This document shows positions 50,692 through 57,067 of a stretch of DNA of 64,000 nucleotides, one piece after another (position 1 is the stretch's first letter; each line of letters opens with the position of its first letter). The stretch comes from Bacteroidota bacterium. Its GTDB lineage: Bacteria > Bacteroidota > Ignavibacteria > Kryptoniales > JAKASW01. The stretch covers positions 248,001 to 312,000 of the forward strand of contig JAKAGT010000002.1 in NCBI GenBank assembly GCA_021825585.1, given 5' to 3'. The position numbers were made by a program, and so were the translations under genes. The notes beneath the pieces are model-generated. The model was not told where the DNA came from and did no database searches. It saw only the letters and a list, made by a program, of their open reading frames with translations.

Positions 50692-51084
50692 ATGCTCAAC
50701 GACACACACCAAAGGAAGCGAAGCAAGCAGCGCGATAAGGTGCTTGGCGTAGTCCGCTCGACTAAATCGCATCCGACTGCAGACTGGGTATTTCACGAGG
50801 TCCGAAAAGAGATGCCGAACATCAGCCTCGCGACCGTATACAGAAACCTCAACCTTCTCGCAGAATCAGGCGAGATAAACGAAGTGCTCTGCGACGGCCA
50901 GTTGAGGTTCGACGCGAACAAGGACGAGCATTTTCATTTTATCTGCAGATCGTGCAAAGGAATTTTCGATATAGATGAAACTCGCGTAGCGTCGCCCGAC
51001 TTCAAACTCCCGCGCGGATACGTCGTCCAGGATGTGCGGATGGACTTCTACGGCATTTGCCCGTCCTGTCAGACGAAACAATAG
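50692..51084 (+). CDS. Fur-family regulator, PerR-like
   Basis: A 130-residue winged-helix metalloregulator. The DNA-recognition region ISLATVYRNLNLLAESGEI is typical. The dimerisation part has HFHFICRSCKG and GICPSC, giving the two CxxC pairs of the structural zinc site. The His-rich stretch DEHFHF fits PerR or Fur sensing sites; position at the end of a rubrerythrin operon favours PerR. GAGG precedes the ATG at moderate spacing. The last 16 bases overlap a decayed outer-membrane gene on the other strand. Confidence 0.88.
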   Translation: MLNDTHQRKRSKQRDKVLGVVRSTKSHPTADWVFHEVRKEMPNISLATVYRNLNLLAESGEINEVLCDGQLRFDANKDEHFHFICRSCKGIFDIDETRVASPDFKLPRGYVVQDVRMDFYGICPSCQTKQ

Positions 51085-51395
51085 CGCGTCCTCATCCCGG
51101 CAACCCTGCTTAGCTGGATTTCATAATTGATGTTCAGGCTGTGGTTCCAATTATCCTGCGATGGGTACTCATTGTAACTGGATACGCCTCCATAGTACGA
51201 CATGTCGAGCGATGAGTAATCCCAGCCGATGTAATTGTCGATCCCGAGACTGGCTTCAAGATAGTCGCCGGGTACTTCAGAATAATTCCCGAACACGTTC
51301 GAATCATGGAAGTAACCCAGTTGCAGCTACGAAGTAAACTGTCCCATCGAAGATGAGGCGGAGAGAAGGATTATCGCCGCAATTGCCCTATTTAT
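51069..51395 (-). pseudogene. Decayed outer-membrane protein gene after the glycosyltransferase
   Basis: Reading on from the glycosyltransferase stop in the overlapping frame gives NRAIAAIILLSASSSMGQFTS, a clean signal peptide, then a TAG (51329-51327), then 85 more codons of barrel-like sequence (LQLGYFHDSNVFGNYSEVPG ... HSLNINYEIQLSR). The codon where ATG is expected is ATA (51395-51393). One G-to-A change there would alter an original overlapping ATGA, converting the upstream TGA stop to the present TAA as well. The 3' end runs into the Fur-family gene, so the rest of the barrel is missing. Start loss, nonsense and truncation together mean a pseudogene. A 75-codon frame from GTG 51296 survives by chance. 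Confidence 0.75.
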
Positions 51396-52681
51396 CGGGG
51401 CGTGTCCCCCGTTGAATCTTCCAATTTGAACCGTACAGTCTTTGCCCATGTGCGTTTCTCCCGCTTGATATAATCAAGGTATATTGCCCTCCCGACAACG
51501 TATATCCAAAACTGGCAGTACGTGAAGTACATCAGGAACACGAGCAGGAAGTTCCTGAATGTATCCATCCCCTCGTATGACAGGACCAGTATGATCTCGA
51601 AAATAAATAGCACGACCGCGAGTATCCACACCGTAGTATACGGACCGGGAAGCGGGATTGCCACGAGATGGGTCACACTCAGTATGAAGATCAGATCGCT
51701 GACTCCGATGGCAAAGAGGAAGATATAATACAACAGAAGGAGGTACAGGACTTCGAACGCGAGAAATTTGTTCTGGAACTGAGGAATCTCTTTAAAGAAT
51801 TTGCCCACGACATAGTTGTTGCCCCGCACCCACCTCGTCCTCTGCTTGGCCCAGACGGAAATTGTCTCCGGCTCCTGTTCCAGCGTCACGGCGAACGGGA
51901 TATACTTGATCTTATAGCCCCTCATGTAAACTCTAATGCTCAGCTCCGAGTCCTCGGTTATCGCATCTTCGTCCCATCCGTTCAAATCATCGAGCAGATG
52001 CTTCCAGATGACGAAGTTCGTTCCCGGCAGAGTGGCCACTTTGAACATCGCCCACCTTCCCGCCTGAAGTATGGCCTGGAAACTCATCGTCTCGATGCTG
52101 ACGAAACGAGTGAGCCATGTCCGGTCTTTGTTTATGGTCCTGAAATTTCCGAGGACTGCTCCGAGATCCGGATGCAGGAGAAGTTCGGCCACCAGATATT
52201 TCAACGCGTCGGGAAGAGGCTGATTGTCGGCATCGTAGACCGCGATTACTTCGGCGTCTGTCTGCTTCAATCCGAGGTTCAGCGCGCGCGACTTCCCTCT
52301 TCCTCCTTCGCCCTTCGGCACGTTGTAACACCGGACTCTCGAATCACGCTCCGATATGCTCTCGACAATTTCCCCTGTCTTATCCGACGAGCCGTCGTTT
52401 ATCACGAGTATCTCGAGCTTATCATGTGGGTACTCAAGCTTGACCATGGCTTCGAGCGTTCTCTGTATTACCGTCTCCTCGTTGTGAGCCGGAATCAGAA
52501 TGCAGACGCGTGGACTTTCAAAATGCGTCATATTGTCTATGGTCTTCTTCTCTTTCGCGGAGTTCCAGTTATGGAAGAATCCTGCCGTGGTGAGGACAAG
52601 CTGGTACGCAATCATGAACCATATGAAAATCACAGAAAGGACGAACAGTCCACCCAGGAGGGTCGTGAAGAAATCATACAT
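51392..52681 (-). CDS. Processive family 2 glycosyltransferase (PgaC/BcsA-like polysaccharide synthase)
   Basis: A 429-residue membrane enzyme. One or two N-terminal helices (residues ~5-35) precede a GT-A domain with PRVCILIPAHNEE, INDGSSD, VYDADNQ and ITEDSELS, and the processive-synthase motif QRTRWVRGN. Several C-terminal helices (~310-400) follow. The order matches PgaC-type synthases that extrude polymer as they make it. The sugar cannot be deduced; the neighbouring deacetylase-like domain suggests an N-acetylated polymer. It overlaps the upstream 1320-residue gene by eight bases and was once overlapped by the decayed outer-membrane gene. Confidence 0.9.
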   Translation of the reverse strand: MYDFFTTLLGGLFVLSVIFIWFMIAYQLVLTTAGFFHNWNSAKEKKTIDNMTHFESPRVCILIPAHNEETVIQRTLEAMVKLEYPHDKLEILVINDGSSDKTGEIVESISERDSRVRCYNVPKGEGGRGKSRALNLGLKQTDAEVIAVYDADNQPLPDALKYLVAELLLHPDLGAVLGNFRTINKDRTWLTRFVSIETMSFQAILQAGRWAMFKVATLPGTNFVIWKHLLDDLNGWDEDAITEDSELSIRVYMRGYKIKYIPFAVTLEQEPETISVWAKQRTRWVRGNNYVVGKFFKEIPQFQNKFLAFEVLYLLLLYYIFLFAIGVSDLIFILSVTHLVAIPLPGPYTTVWILAVVLFIFEIILVLSYEGMDTFRNFLLVFLMYFTYCQFWIYVVGRAIYLDYIKREKRTWAKTVRFKLEDSTGDTPR

Positions 52682-55600
52682 GTGCGACGGCCCTTCTTCT
52701 CAACTTGACTACGAAATACAGAATGATGAGCAAACCGCCGGCAATCGAGCCGAATATCGCAATGACCGCAGATGACCATAAGCTTGTCATATCGATTCCG
52801 TAAGAGACTGTGCTCTCCAGGATGACGAGCGCCTTGTGCTGGCCCGGTGGCAATACGATGCCGTAATGCTGCTCTTCCCGTGCAACAGAGAAGCTAATCT
52901 CGTGATCGTCGATGAAGACAGCGTATGGAGGCTTTCCGAATGACACGACGCAACGAGTCGGAGAATCGTAAGTGAACTCCACTCCCCGTTGAAATGTGCG
53001 CTGGTTGAGGATGTTGCAGGAGGCTGCCTCGATATGCGCCTCCATCATTCCACTCTGAAATGGATTCACGTCTGTTTTCACGATCTTGACGAGGTGTTCC
53101 CCCGCAGAGACGGCAAATGAACCGGGCCTGAACGGGTAAACGATTCTGTTGTCTACCGATATTTCCTTAATATCGTTACCGAACTTCAACGCGGTCGAAT
53201 AAGGAGCGTTCACCCTGTATCCACCCTCTACGACTTCAAAATCCGCCTGCGGTGTCATAGCGTAAGGAAATTCCGCAATATCCTGCGGCAACGCCGTTGC
53301 TTCAGAATAGATTGTCATTCGGGGTGCCGCTTGAGCCGCGGAGTTGACCATCAGATAACTTTCTATGCCGGTCGGAATCAGCGTCGGGAAGATACCGCCA
53401 TAGTTCGGCTGACGGAAGGAAAGAATGTTCAAATCGATCATGAGGTCGGAAGAGTCAGGTCCCAACAGGGTCCTGTAGGTCCTTCCTATTGCGAGGTACC
53501 TTCTAGGGTCGGTATTCCAACTCGCTTCCGGATCTTCCACTTGAAGTGCAAAGTCATACTTGCTCCGCAACCTGACGATCTGGTCGATATCGACTCCGAT
53601 CGACGCCCGCAGACCCGGATTCGTTTTCTGGTCAAGAACTGTCAGTATAATTTGCGCACCGGGTTTGCTTTCAAAAGCGTCGGTCGCCAACGACAGGAAA
53701 TGCGCGGTCAGGTTCGTAATGAGGGACACGCGGAAGTCTACAAAATCCTTCCAACTCTGCGGCGAGTTTTTAAAGTAATACTGGGAATTCTGTTGAAACA
53801 GATGAACGGGATCGAACCCGTATTTCTTTCGGAAGAGGATTCGCGCGCTTTTATCGAACGGCGTCAGGGCAGTAGGGTCGGCGGGCGCTCCCTCGCCGCC
53901 GAAATAGATTTCGGCAATGTCCGCTCCGTCCCAGTCATGCGATGTCAGGAATTTATGTGTCCAGTCCGAAGCCGCGTTCAGACAAGCCGTGTCGGTCAGG
54001 GCAACCGGATATCGCCAGTCTTCCCGAACATCCTCGCCCTTGTAGTTTTTCTCATGCCATTGCGGATGATCGTCATAGAATTTCTTACTGATCTGCGGCG
54101 GTTCGAGCCAGGCGTAGACCATAATCCCGTACGCGTGACAGAGTCTTATCAGTCTATCATAGTCGTATGTGTAGTTCTTATATTCGTGCCAGCCCGCAAC
54201 ATGGATCACACGGATTCCCTTGTCTGCCCATTCCTTCACAAGGGCCTCGATGCTGGTGTTTCTGTGAAGTCCGGGATCGAAATACATTTCCAGATTGTCC
54301 CGCCGCAGAGTCGGATACAGCTCCAGATAGGCTTTTATCCATTCAATCAAGTAAGGGAAACGAGTGTAACCACCGTCACTGACCGGGTCGAACCTGGCAC
54401 TTATGCAAATGAATCTCCCCTTACCGTATTTTCTTGCAATGGCTACAGGGGCGTCGTTCACATCGTTCCTGCAGATGATTTTGTCATCTTCGTTCACATC
54501 GATTCTGTGAACCGTCTCGAACGAGCTCCAGATCAACAGTTCTTCCGGAAAGAGCCTGTCTCTTACCTTCTCGACTCTCATGACATTCGGGCTGAACTTG
54601 ACGCCCAGGTCTTCGGCAACCGGATTCTTGGAGTCCGTAATCAGCCTTCCTCCGTCGGATACGAACTCCTGAAGGACTTCGTATAACGAGTCAGGCAGGT
54701 TTTGTGCACTGCTGTATGGCACGACGATGAGATTGTACTTGTTCAGCGAGCTGAGACTGTCAACCGAAAGAATGTCCGTAGGAATTCCAACGCTTCTCAG
54801 TGCCGTATAAAAAGATTCCTCGTCCGACTTCGCGCCTCCCGTCGCGGTCGAATCCCACAAAACGGCCGCTACGGCAGGCGTTACGGTCTCTTTCTTTGGG
54901 AACAGCCCGTTCCAGAAATTCCTCATGCTGATCCCGACTTTATCTAAAAAAGTCAACTCTTTCTCGTGGTATTCAATCGGCTCAGCCGCATAAATCCATC
55001 CGGGCTTGAGATCCAGGTTTCGGGAAACCACGGCGGTTATTCGATGCGGCGTAATATCTTTCTTGACCCGTTCGGTCTTCTGGTTTAAATAGACCTCTTT
55101 CAGGTACTGGTCCTCTATCGAGACCTTAACTGATCCTTTGCCGGTCACAATCGCCCTGTCGGGAAGCGTAACGGAGTTGTTTCCGTCACGAAGGTTGATG
55201 TAAGTATATCCGAGTGACTTGACACCTTCGACAATTTCCTTCAGCAAATCTATAGGCATAAACGGATGGAAAAATGCAGTCGCATAGCCGTCACGCACGT
55301 ATAGATTCGCCTTTGCCGCTTCCAGTATATCACGTACGGCTTGCTCTTCTTCCTGTCGGGAGCCGAGCGGGACATAGCCGAGATTCTCAGGAATGATCTT
55401 CTGGCCGTAGATATCGTGCCTGATGACATAAGGAAAGAACTGGCTGTAATTCAGATCGTTCAACATGATCCTCTGCTCAACGGCGGTCGAGAAGACCTTG
55501 GATATTGCGGCGTAATCCAATTCAGAAGCGCCGTAATGCGGAGTCTCCCACGCCACCGGGTATACACCGTTTCGCATGAGCTCCTCGACCCCGGTCTCGA

Positions 55601-56636
55601 GCTTCTGCTGGACATAAGCGGCGTTGTCGTTGGCTATAGGTTTGTTTGCAGCTCCGTCCCAGAACTCGTAATCATTATCCGTCACACCATGATACTGGTG
55701 TGTCACCCCGTGCATGACGATTGTAGCGCCATGCTCTTCCGCGTACCGGAGCGCATCCACCATGTCAGGCTTGTCGGAGAGCGAGATGCGGACGTTGTTC
55801 GACGGGTCGACGTAAAACGGGACCACTGCAATAAGGAATGGAACATGCTCGCCGTAGAGCAGGTCTGTTATCTTCCTGATGCTGTTTGGGTCTTCCGTAG
55901 GATCGACGTCCTCTATGCGAATAAGCGCGGCATGGAATTCCTTATGAGGTTGATTCAGAATCTCGTGCAGCTTCTCAGCGAAGAAGAGGTACCTGTCGGT
56001 TGGACCGACATAAGAAAAGGGAGAATCGCCAAACAGATAAAGATTTCCCGAATGAATGGCATACGGGGAAACGATATGATGAGGCGCTATGGCATCAGCC
56101 AGAACCTGTACTTTGCTTCGGTTGGTAATCGAAAGTATAGTCAGGTACTCATCGCCCTTCGTGAACCTGACATTCTTGTCCAGCGCGAGAACGGCATCAT
56201 AGCCGGCGGTGGAGTCGTACCCTTCCGGCACGAACCCATACTTCTGTTCGAGGTTGTGCCTGGCGTTCAATGCGATGATGCCGGTGTTAAGCCAGACGAG
56301 TGTCCCCTTGAAATCGTACGCGTCATCTAGAAACCGTGCAGGCGGCTGACAGCTATTCGTAAAGCCGGTGAAGAAGATATAGTCATATTTACTGCATTCG
56401 CCTGCCCTGTAGTTATCCGCGGCTATCAGCGTCTTTTGCAGGTCGAAATGGCCGAGGAGTTCGTCCAACTGGAGTGCATCGCCTTTTGCAGGATTGAGCT
56501 CGCTGTCGGTCCCTTCATAGACGATCAGCACACGGGTGCCCTGCCCCTGCGCCGCGGCATTAGGGCCGGCGAGTACCTCACCGGCAGTTAGCACGGATAT
56601 CACCAACAACAATTTTCTTATCATCGTAATGGCCAT
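52674..56636 (-). CDS. Giant exported polysaccharide-modifying protein: DUF2334 deacetylase-like, Rossmann/GATase-like and TIM-barrel hydrolase-like domains
   Basis: 1320 residues. Residues 1-30 are a signal peptide. Residues ~235-485 form a polysaccharide-deacetylase-like (DUF2334) domain: RIEDVDP with Asp243/Asp245, MHGVTH with His309 and His313, and His457 in FFHPF are candidate metal ligands. Residues ~585-775 look like a Rossmann/GATase-type domain (VVPYSSAQNLPDSLYEVL, FVSDGGRLI). Residues ~790-1090 resemble a TIM-barrel glycoside-hydrolase-like domain (IRVIHVAGWHEY, YAWLEPPQ). A beta-sandwich follows, then a C-terminal helix (VIAIFGSIAGGLLIILYFVV) and basic tail. It overlaps the GT2 synthase start. 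PgaB and PelA combine similar activities in other orders. Catalysis is inferred, not shown. Confidence 0.78.
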   Translation of the reverse strand: MAITMIRKLLLVISVLTAGEVLAGPNAAAQGQGTRVLIVYEGTDSELNPAKGDALQLDELLGHFDLQKTLIAADNYRAGECSKYDYIFFTGFTNSCQPPARFLDDAYDFKGTLVWLNTGIIALNARHNLEQKYGFVPEGYDSTAGYDAVLALDKNVRFTKGDEYLTILSITNRSKVQVLADAIAPHHIVSPYAIHSGNLYLFGDSPFSYVGPTDRYLFFAEKLHEILNQPHKEFHAALIRIEDVDPTEDPNSIRKITDLLYGEHVPFLIAVVPFYVDPSNNVRISLSDKPDMVDALRYAEEHGATIVMHGVTHQYHGVTDNDYEFWDGAANKPIANDNAAYVQQKLETGVEELMRNGVYPVAWETPHYGASELDYAAISKVFSTAVEQRIMLNDLNYSQFFPYVIRHDIYGQKIIPENLGYVPLGSRQEEEQAVRDILEAAKANLYVRDGYATAFFHPFMPIDLLKEIVEGVKSLGYTYINLRDGNNSVTLPDRAIVTGKGSVKVSIEDQYLKEVYLNQKTERVKKDITPHRITAVVSRNLDLKPGWIYAAEPIEYHEKELTFLDKVGISMRNFWNGLFPKKETVTPAVAAVLWDSTATGGAKSDEESFYTALRSVGIPTDILSVDSLSSLNKYNLIVVPYSSAQNLPDSLYEVLQEFVSDGGRLITDSKNPVAEDLGVKFSPNVMRVEKVRDRLFPEELLIWSSFETVHRIDVNEDDKIICRNDVNDAPVAIARKYGKGRFICISARFDPVSDGGYTRFPYLIEWIKAYLELYPTLRRDNLEMYFDPGLHRNTSIEALVKEWADKGIRVIHVAGWHEYKNYTYDYDRLIRLCHAYGIMVYAWLEPPQISKKFYDDHPQWHEKNYKGEDVREDWRYPVALTDTACLNAASDWTHKFLTSHDWDGADIAEIYFGGEGAPADPTALTPFDKSARILFRKKYGFDPVHLFQQNSQYYFKNSPQSWKDFVDFRVSLITNLTAHFLSLATDAFESKPGAQIILTVLDQKTNPGLRASIGVDIDQIVRLRSKYDFALQVEDPEASWNTDPRRYLAIGRTYRTLLGPDSSDLMIDLNILSFRQPNYGGIFPTLIPTGIESYLMVNSAAQAAPRMTIYSEATALPQDIAEFPYAMTPQADFEVVEGGYRVNAPYSTALKFGNDIKEISVDNRIVYPFRPGSFAVSAGEHLVKIVKTDVNPFQSGMMEAHIEAASCNILNQRTFQRGVEFTYDSPTRCVVSFGKPPYAVFIDDHEISFSVAREEQHYGIVLPPGQHKALVILESTVSYGIDMTSLWSSAVIAIFGSIAGGLLIILYFVVKLRRRAVAHV

Positions 56637-56653: not shown

Positions 56654-57067
56654 TTAATTGAAGTGAGAAGAGCGTTCCGGGAAAGTGTAGCCGGACCCGT
56701 GATGCAGGATCATTTGCCAGCGGGCGCCTTTCTGTTCAAACACGTTGGAAGCGACAACCTTGAATTTCTGTGTGCCCTCTGTACTGACTGAAGTTATCTC
56801 TTCGATCAGAGATACTAATGCAATTGTATTGACGATATCTATCTGGACATTGTGGAGTTCAAACTTCATCATAGTGGGGTTGGAGAAGATTCCCTCCCAG
56901 CTCTGCCTGACTTCGCTCCACCCAATCAGCGTCTTCCAGCCGGGATGCGTGCAGCGCACGTAATCACCATTCGACCAGACTTCCTGCATCGAGCTGATGT
57001 CATAATCCTCAAAAGCCCTGTAAAAAGACCGATTTGCCCGCAATACCTCCTCCCGATCGCTTTCCAT
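56654..57067 (-). CDS. SnoaL/NTF2-like domain protein
   Basis: A 137-residue single-domain protein with the NTF2-like cone fold pattern: N-terminal helix (LRANRSFYRAFEDYDISSM), then VWSNGDYVRCTHPGW and GWSEVRQSWEGIF, and a final strand WQMILHHGSGY. Such proteins can be small enzymes or binding domains, often annotated as nuclear transport factor 2 family; specificity is unknown. It starts seven bases after the PhoH stop and ends 18 bases before the 1320-residue gene, so it may be transcribed with either. Confidence 0.8.
   Translation of the reverse strand: MESDREEVLRANRSFYRAFEDYDISSMQEVWSNGDYVRCTHPGWKTLIGWSEVRQSWEGIFSNPTMMKFELHNVQIDIVNTIALVSLIEEITSVSTEGTQKFKVVASNVFEQKGARWQMILHHGSGYTFPERSSHFN

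Follow-up and report, generated by a model that had tools for sequence, protein, structure and literature searches.

The studied operons that parallel the unit described herein are ydaJKLMN of Bacillus subtilis and pssA-E of Listeria (PMC5422440, PMC4125290), and in both, as here, a GT2 polymerase is the key enzyme. Listeria Pss is a beta-1,4-ManNAc chain with galactose (PMC5422440), and Listeria PssC is ~30% like IcaA (PMC4125290), a value to be compared with the 28% identity between our GT2 and Escherichia coli PgaC. In E. coli, the Pga system combines a deacetylase and then a hydrolase in one exported lipoprotein, PgaB, as is also the order here, while the NfrBA-YbcH proteins and WecB, which together account for the N4 glycan receptor (NGR), bring together a GT2, WecB, and an outer-membrane barrel, again as here; the Nfr polymer has been proposed to be ManNAc-based (PMC8669469, PMC8669472). 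PelA, too, is an exported protein that unites hydrolase and deacetylase. Finally, Aspergillus Agd3 (CE18/CBM87), a fungal polysaccharide deacetylase, contains GATase-like, deacetylase, and beta-rich domains in that order, as do bacterial homologues in uncharacterised exopolysaccharide operons (PMC7229062); the protein studied here would share this arrangement. The unit that we describe works like Pga, Yda/Pss, and Nfr, yet lacks defining features that we tested for each of them.

The unit lies in a window of 64,000 nucleotides (the whole stretch of DNA that was analysed) from a Bacteroidota genome, where a 1320-aa and a 429-aa reading frame, both open on the minus strand, overlap by eight bases, ATGTATGA (52674-52681), with the longer gene upstream. 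This overlap, like the coordinates of the two frames, agrees with a preliminary description of the same DNA. The features are as follows.

51099-51389, minus strand: pseudogene that keeps the 5' part of a gene for a 16-strand outer-membrane barrel and is broken by a TAG (7.8e-29 against the barrel profile, covering positions 3-99 of 411, with 1 TAG).
51392-52681, minus strand: 429-aa processive GT2 synthase whose GT domain is flanked on both sides by hydrophobic membrane stretches (PF13641, 2.9e-31).
52674-56636, minus strand: exported, inner-membrane-anchored modifying protein, 1320 aa, with DUF2334, GATase/GH42M-like, and PgaB-type TIM-barrel domains (ORF, Pfam, and homologues).
52713-52781, minus strand: predicted C-terminal membrane anchor, residues 1286-1308, then KLRRR (sequence and conservation of the stretch).
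52797-53294, minus strand: C-terminal beta-rich region, residues 1115-1280 (model to residue 1190, the remainder by sequence only).
53307-54299, minus strand: TIM-barrel glycoside-hydrolase-type domain, residues 780-1110 (model, Foldseek, and invariant columns).
54312-54869, minus strand: GATase/GH42 trimerisation-like Rossmann domain, residues 590-775 (PF08532 and model).
54957-55184, minus strand: beta-rich region, residues 485-560 (secondary structure of the AlphaFold2 model).
55224-55928, minus strand: DUF2334 (PF10096) polysaccharide-deacetylase-type domain, residues 237-471 (Pfam, E 8.6e-52).
55932-56540, minus strand: putative N-terminal domain, residues 33-235 (aligned with three plasmid-borne DUF2334 proteins).
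56547-56636, minus strand: predicted signal peptide, residues 1-30, with the ATG at 1 or 5 (basic MIRK, then a hydrophobic stretch and small residues).

The flanking reading frames are, by eye, PhoH-like, NTF2-like, and Fur-like. The small NTF2-like gene (window 56654-57067), between phoH and the DUF2334 gene, was also called in one relative (L033) and not in most members of the genus.

The larger protein scored 176.1 bits against PF10096 (Pfam cut-off, 26), and 27 of 27 family members matched. Specifically, E242, D243, H309, H313, P366-H367-Y368, and H457 were invariant in the family and in DUF2334 proteins from Burkholderia, Comamonadaceae, and Streptomyces. With roles assigned by analogy, D243, H309-x3-H313, and H457 fit the Asp-His-His metal site and the further catalytic His of NodB-type deacetylases, and Glu242 occupies the place of their usual first Asp; the invariant set is what a metal-dependent deacetylase would need. 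The N-terminal domain, which alignment finds in common with the same three groups of DUF2334 proteins, is possibly GATase1/CBM87-like, as in Agd3, judging by the domain arrangement; since Agd3 has this domain order, the N-terminal domain may bind sugar. At the other end, the predicted hydrophobic stretch is followed by KLRRR, and the body of the protein should therefore face the periplasm.

Downstream of the DUF2334 domain, residues 604-667 matched PF08532 (GH42M) with 30.1 bits against a cut-off of 25.8, a match found in 25 of 27 members, and residues 827-888 matched GHL6 below its Pfam cut-off. An AlphaFold2 model of residues 485-1190, built from 27 sequences (pLDDT 89), consists of a beta region, a Rossmann/GATase-like domain, a TIM barrel, and another beta region. 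The top Foldseek match of this model in the PDB was the C-terminal domain of E. coli PgaB (4p7q; E 2.5e-11, TM 0.66 by target, 5.1 A), and next in rank came GH42, GH36, GH20, and further sugar hydrolases; carbohydrate enzymes were thus retrieved, not unrelated folds. In the TIM barrel, the alignment columns of D903-G904 and E909 are invariant, and E909 lies six residues past D903 in DWDGVNIAE, with the same spacing as the catalytic Asp of PgaB (PMC5933820) in FDGILFHD, a likeness of motif spacing and not of superposition. The resemblance to the GH153 hydrolase domain of PgaB is at the fold level only, because hhalign of the TIM region and of the N half against PgaB detected no sequence similarity. 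A PDB profile search with the whole 1320-aa protein or its halves returned no convincing sequence relative, and Agd3 was not matched. The preliminary description had named a signal peptide, DUF2334, Rossmann/GATase-like, and TIM-barrel domains (the last now placed at ~780-1110), and a C-terminal anchor. The three domains were recovered, and the predicted signal peptide and anchor remain consistent with the sequence and with conservation of the anchor stretch, but the proposed four-part architecture was too simple: there are more parts, including the conserved N-terminal region (~30-235) and the beta-rich regions (~485-560 and ~1115-1280). In three Bacteroidales loci (L112:5923-8118, L113, and L125:12279-14474), a stand-alone paralogue of the C-terminal half (GATase-like and TIM barrel, ~730 aa), without DUF2334, adjoins the operon, so the hydrolase half can exist alone.

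The gene pair is widespread. Of 119 related genomes, 32 encode a full-length homologue of the 1320-aa protein, and the GTDB genome collection has such homologues at 353 places; the match still covers nearly the whole protein where identity drops to ~30%. The best 80 of these 353 places, retrieved for comparison, fall in Bacteroidota (Ignavibacteria, Kapabacteria, Kryptonia, and Bacteroidales) and Acidobacteria, with few or single genomes labelled Spirochaetes, Desulfobacteraceae, KSB1, Aminicenantes, and Verrucomicrobia; the single-genome phylum labels may be wrong, because most source genomes are MAGs. Of the 71 loci with room for a downstream neighbour, 69 have a GT2 gene no more than 300 bp downstream of the DUF2334 gene and on its strand, and the remaining two have one within 3 kb; outside the window's genus, the count is 61 of 63. 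These counts (32/119, 353, and 69/71) rule out a local oddity, and the pairing is not unique to this genome, which removes an objection that the preliminary description had raised against itself. Further, the tree of one protein reflects that of the other (r 0.95, with 0 of 1000 permutations as high), part of which shared descent alone would give, and dN/dS (0.054 for the 1320-aa protein against its closest relative, 0.021 for the GT2) indicates strong purifying selection on both genes. In the open-access literature, we found no relevant paper on DUF2334 in a polysaccharide role and no demonstrated activity for any DUF2334 protein.

Outside the genus, the only other widely recurrent neighbours are wecB, the barrel gene, and a propeller-like family. 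The last comprises one or two repeat proteins of 700-860 aa with TTDGGxSW motifs (BNR/Ycf48-like propellers by eye), encoded directly upstream in 16 loci (L050:11321-15974 and related loci), and in loci of this type the repeat gene sometimes overlaps the DUF2334 gene by 4 bases. Some loci also encode a GH42-like exported protein immediately upstream of the DUF2334 gene; its gene is on the opposite strand in two Acidobacteria (L073 and L089), but shares the strand in a Desulfobacteraceae locus (L131:5231-6877).

In 24 of 63 loci, the gene immediately upstream, on the same strand, is wecB, which encodes UDP-GlcNAc 2-epimerase and has 62-83% identity to the L042 copy; in L134 and L140, wecB lies downstream. 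The adjacency has few independent origins, as the tree shows mainly one clade with losses. In the window's genus, wecB is not adjacent to the pair; it lies elsewhere in this genome, with no other obvious polysaccharide genes around by eye. The same genome holds a second, distant wecB-like frame with one TAA inside (G000:C86:61717-62847). Outside the family, a Comamonadaceae plasmid (L152; CP099603.1 265252-274198) carries an Nfr-type operon with the order wecB, NfrB-like GT2, small gene, DUF2334, NfrA-like TPR/barrel, and DUF4434, the family of YbcH in the E. coli nfr operon. The Streptomyces plasmid hit has wecB and a GT2 beside DUF2334, and the Burkholderia plasmid gene has no neighbours of the wecB or GT2 type. 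Two of the three plasmid hits hence add independent evidence for the wecB/ManNAc link. The Comamonadaceae and Streptomyces neighbourhoods, taken with the Nfr and Pss literature, place DUF2334 repeatedly beside ManNAc-type systems whose GT2s belong to different lineages. ManNAc is the likeliest sugar, and we ourselves assign it roughly an even chance; judged by its sequence, a GT2 that resembles PgaC (28%) more than NfrB would equally allow GlcNAc.

What is established here is the gene pairing, its conservation, the folds, the conserved catalytic residues, and the wecB association. In our view, the pair probably forms a synthase-dependent unit for an exopolysaccharide (or an envelope polysaccharide), in which the GT2 makes a polymer, most likely of ManNAc, the DUF2334 domain de-N-acetylates it, and the PgaB-like domain cuts or holds it. 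The direction of transport, the deacetylase and hydrolase activities, and the sugar are what we infer in the following scheme. The GT2 would polymerise an activated N-acetyl-sugar at the inner membrane, pushing the chain to the periplasmic side. There, the body of the large protein, whose anchor would sit next to the GT2, would de-N-acetylate the chain through the DUF2334 domain and cut or hold it through the TIM barrel. In lineages that keep the third gene, the 16-strand barrel would pass the product through the outer membrane; otherwise, a barrel encoded elsewhere may do so. UDP-ManNAc would be supplied by WecB, whose gene is upstream in many relatives and elsewhere in this genome.

In the B. 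subtilis system, YdaL is, we presume, a DUF2334 protein with a C-terminal anchor, and the B. subtilis genome does hold PF10096. The Yda/Pss operons differ from this unit in carrying a BcsB-like protein (YdaN/PssD) and a degenerate GGDEF receptor (YdaK/PssE), and no BcsB-sized or GGDEF-like reading frame is present in the unit. Their hydrolase, YdaJ, is encoded by a separate gene, whereas here it is fused, and their hosts are Gram-positive and without an outer membrane. The preliminary description had proposed an exopolysaccharide system with PgaB and PelA as parallels and without accessory genes. Its reading of a synthase-dependent unit with an exported deacetylase-hydrolase is supported, and PgaB has the same domain order and gives the top fold match, but the description missed the studied Yda/Pss operons, wecB, and the Nfr-type ManNAc link. 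The PelA parallel is weak: the domain order is the reverse, the Pel synthase is a different one, PelF, and with none of PelF, PelG, PelB, and PelC in the operon, Pel membership was rejected. Agd3, in turn, acts on an alpha-1,4-GalNAc polymer. The absence of accessory genes is true of the window, but relatives have wecB and an intact barrel as neighbours.

One alternative is a divergent Pga-type system making poly-beta-1,6-GlcNAc, in which the fusion protein would deacetylate and trim as a PgaB analogue and the neighbouring wecB would serve another pathway. Of the two E. coli synthases compared, PgaC is nearer than NfrB to our GT2, PgaC_IcaA is its best NCBIfam model, and PgaB offers both the same succession of deacetylase and hydrolase and the top fold match. 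The PgaC_IcaA score, however, is 175.8 bits, far under the cut-off of 422.3, and DUF2334 replaces the PgaB deacetylase family in a protein with extra domains and an inner-membrane anchor in place of the PgaB lipoprotein. A PgaD-type small membrane gene adjoins the GT2 neither at this locus nor in the relatives' loci examined, and the Pga exporter combines TPR with a 16-strand barrel, whereas the barrel of the relatives is without TPR and is a pseudogene in this genome. Low PgaC score, missing PgaD, and missing TPR-barrel PgaA led us to reject Pga membership. The association with wecB in 24 of 63 loci also speaks against this alternative, as does the fact that Listeria makes a ManNAc polymer despite the comparable likeness of PssC to IcaA (PMC4125290, PMC5422440). 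We therefore regard a Pga-type GlcNAc system as unlikely.

The barrel bears on a second alternative, namely that the product is a periplasmic or cell-envelope glycan, with the chain kept between the membranes or attached to the envelope and the barrel a lineage-specific extra. The preliminary description had placed a former barrel gene after the GT2, and the remnant at 51099-51389 indeed matches the first 99 positions of an intact family, with one TAG, and shows 69% identity, across 96 aa, with its intact counterpart in L034. The intact barrel, found in relatives as that description had anticipated, has a signal peptide and 16 long strands (model, pLDDT 80), the strand number of the PgaA barrel. 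In structure it matched OprD-type porins, OmpG, and the alginate exporter AlgE, at a modest TM of ~0.34-0.47 by query; some family members match the SlipAM barrel family, and no TPR or NfrA_C region was found in the family. Within the window's genus, four genomes have the barrel gene intact, two (the present one and its nearest relative) have it in decayed form, and in five it was not found; across the wider set, only 18 of the 58 loci with room have it directly after the GT2. Even with the barrel decayed or absent, dN/dS of both pair genes is 0.02-0.054, a sign of strong purifying selection, which rules out that barrel loss marks a dead operon here; the unit looks alive and the cis barrel dispensable in the genus. 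Because most species of the genus have lost it or hold it decayed, export through the cis barrel is not essential there, and this favours the envelope reading. Against that reading, different small outer-membrane barrel-like genes follow the GT2 in L130, L134, and L138, and wecB in L140, another barrel in the genome could perform export, and the parallel systems all secrete. Retention of the product in the envelope hence has, in our view, only a modest chance. Between the barrel-like gene and wecB, L130:13993-15924 and L134:11706-13574 encode an FG-GAP propeller protein whose C-terminal tail is of the secretion type (Pfam assignment from the L130 copy).

GT2 enzymes of similar size also include lipid glycosyltransferases, and the GT2 could instead glycosylate lipid or protein, the large protein recycling or remodelling the glycoconjugate, and no polymer being made. 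We find this quite improbable: D96, DAD (150-152), TED (242-244), and QRxRW (280-284) are invariant in 17 homologues and correspond to the motifs of processive synthases (QxxRW and TED among them), and coupling with a deacetylase and hydrolase protein is typical of polymer systems. Solved relatives of the GT2 include cellulose and hyaluronan synthases. That the unit is an Nfr/NGR ManNAc system with its usual parts lost or replaced is the least credible reading, for although wecB is linked to both (in this genome by presence only, and adjacent in 24 of 63 related loci, as a source of UDP-ManNAc) and the Comamonadaceae Nfr-type operon carries a DUF2334 gene, the GT2 has no significant similarity to E. 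coli NfrB (E 0.12) and no MshEN domain by Pfam, the two findings on which Nfr membership was rejected, the barrel is without the TPR region of NfrA or an NfrA_C region, and the unit has no DUF4434 gene such as that for YbcH.

A synthase-dependent polysaccharide unit thus being our preferred reading, a broader proposal can be put forward tentatively. DUF2334 might be a de-N-acetylase family of ManNAc polymers across bacteria, associated with at least two GT2 lineages (PgaC/PssC-like and NfrB-like), of which the present unit would be a so far undescribed, multi-phylum version that fuses deacetylase, PgaB-like hydrolase, and anchor. The finding connects the Yda/Pss, Nfr, and Pga systems and offers a candidate function, poly-ManNAc deacetylase, for a Pfam family still listed as unknown. 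Of the two ManNAc surface polymers that have been studied, that of Nfr is a phage receptor and that of Pss gives protection from drying and disinfectants. For the little-studied phyla concerned (Ignavibacteria, Kapabacteria, Kryptonia, Bacteroidales, Acidobacteria, and others), it would mean a synthase-dependent polysaccharide system in hundreds of genomes.
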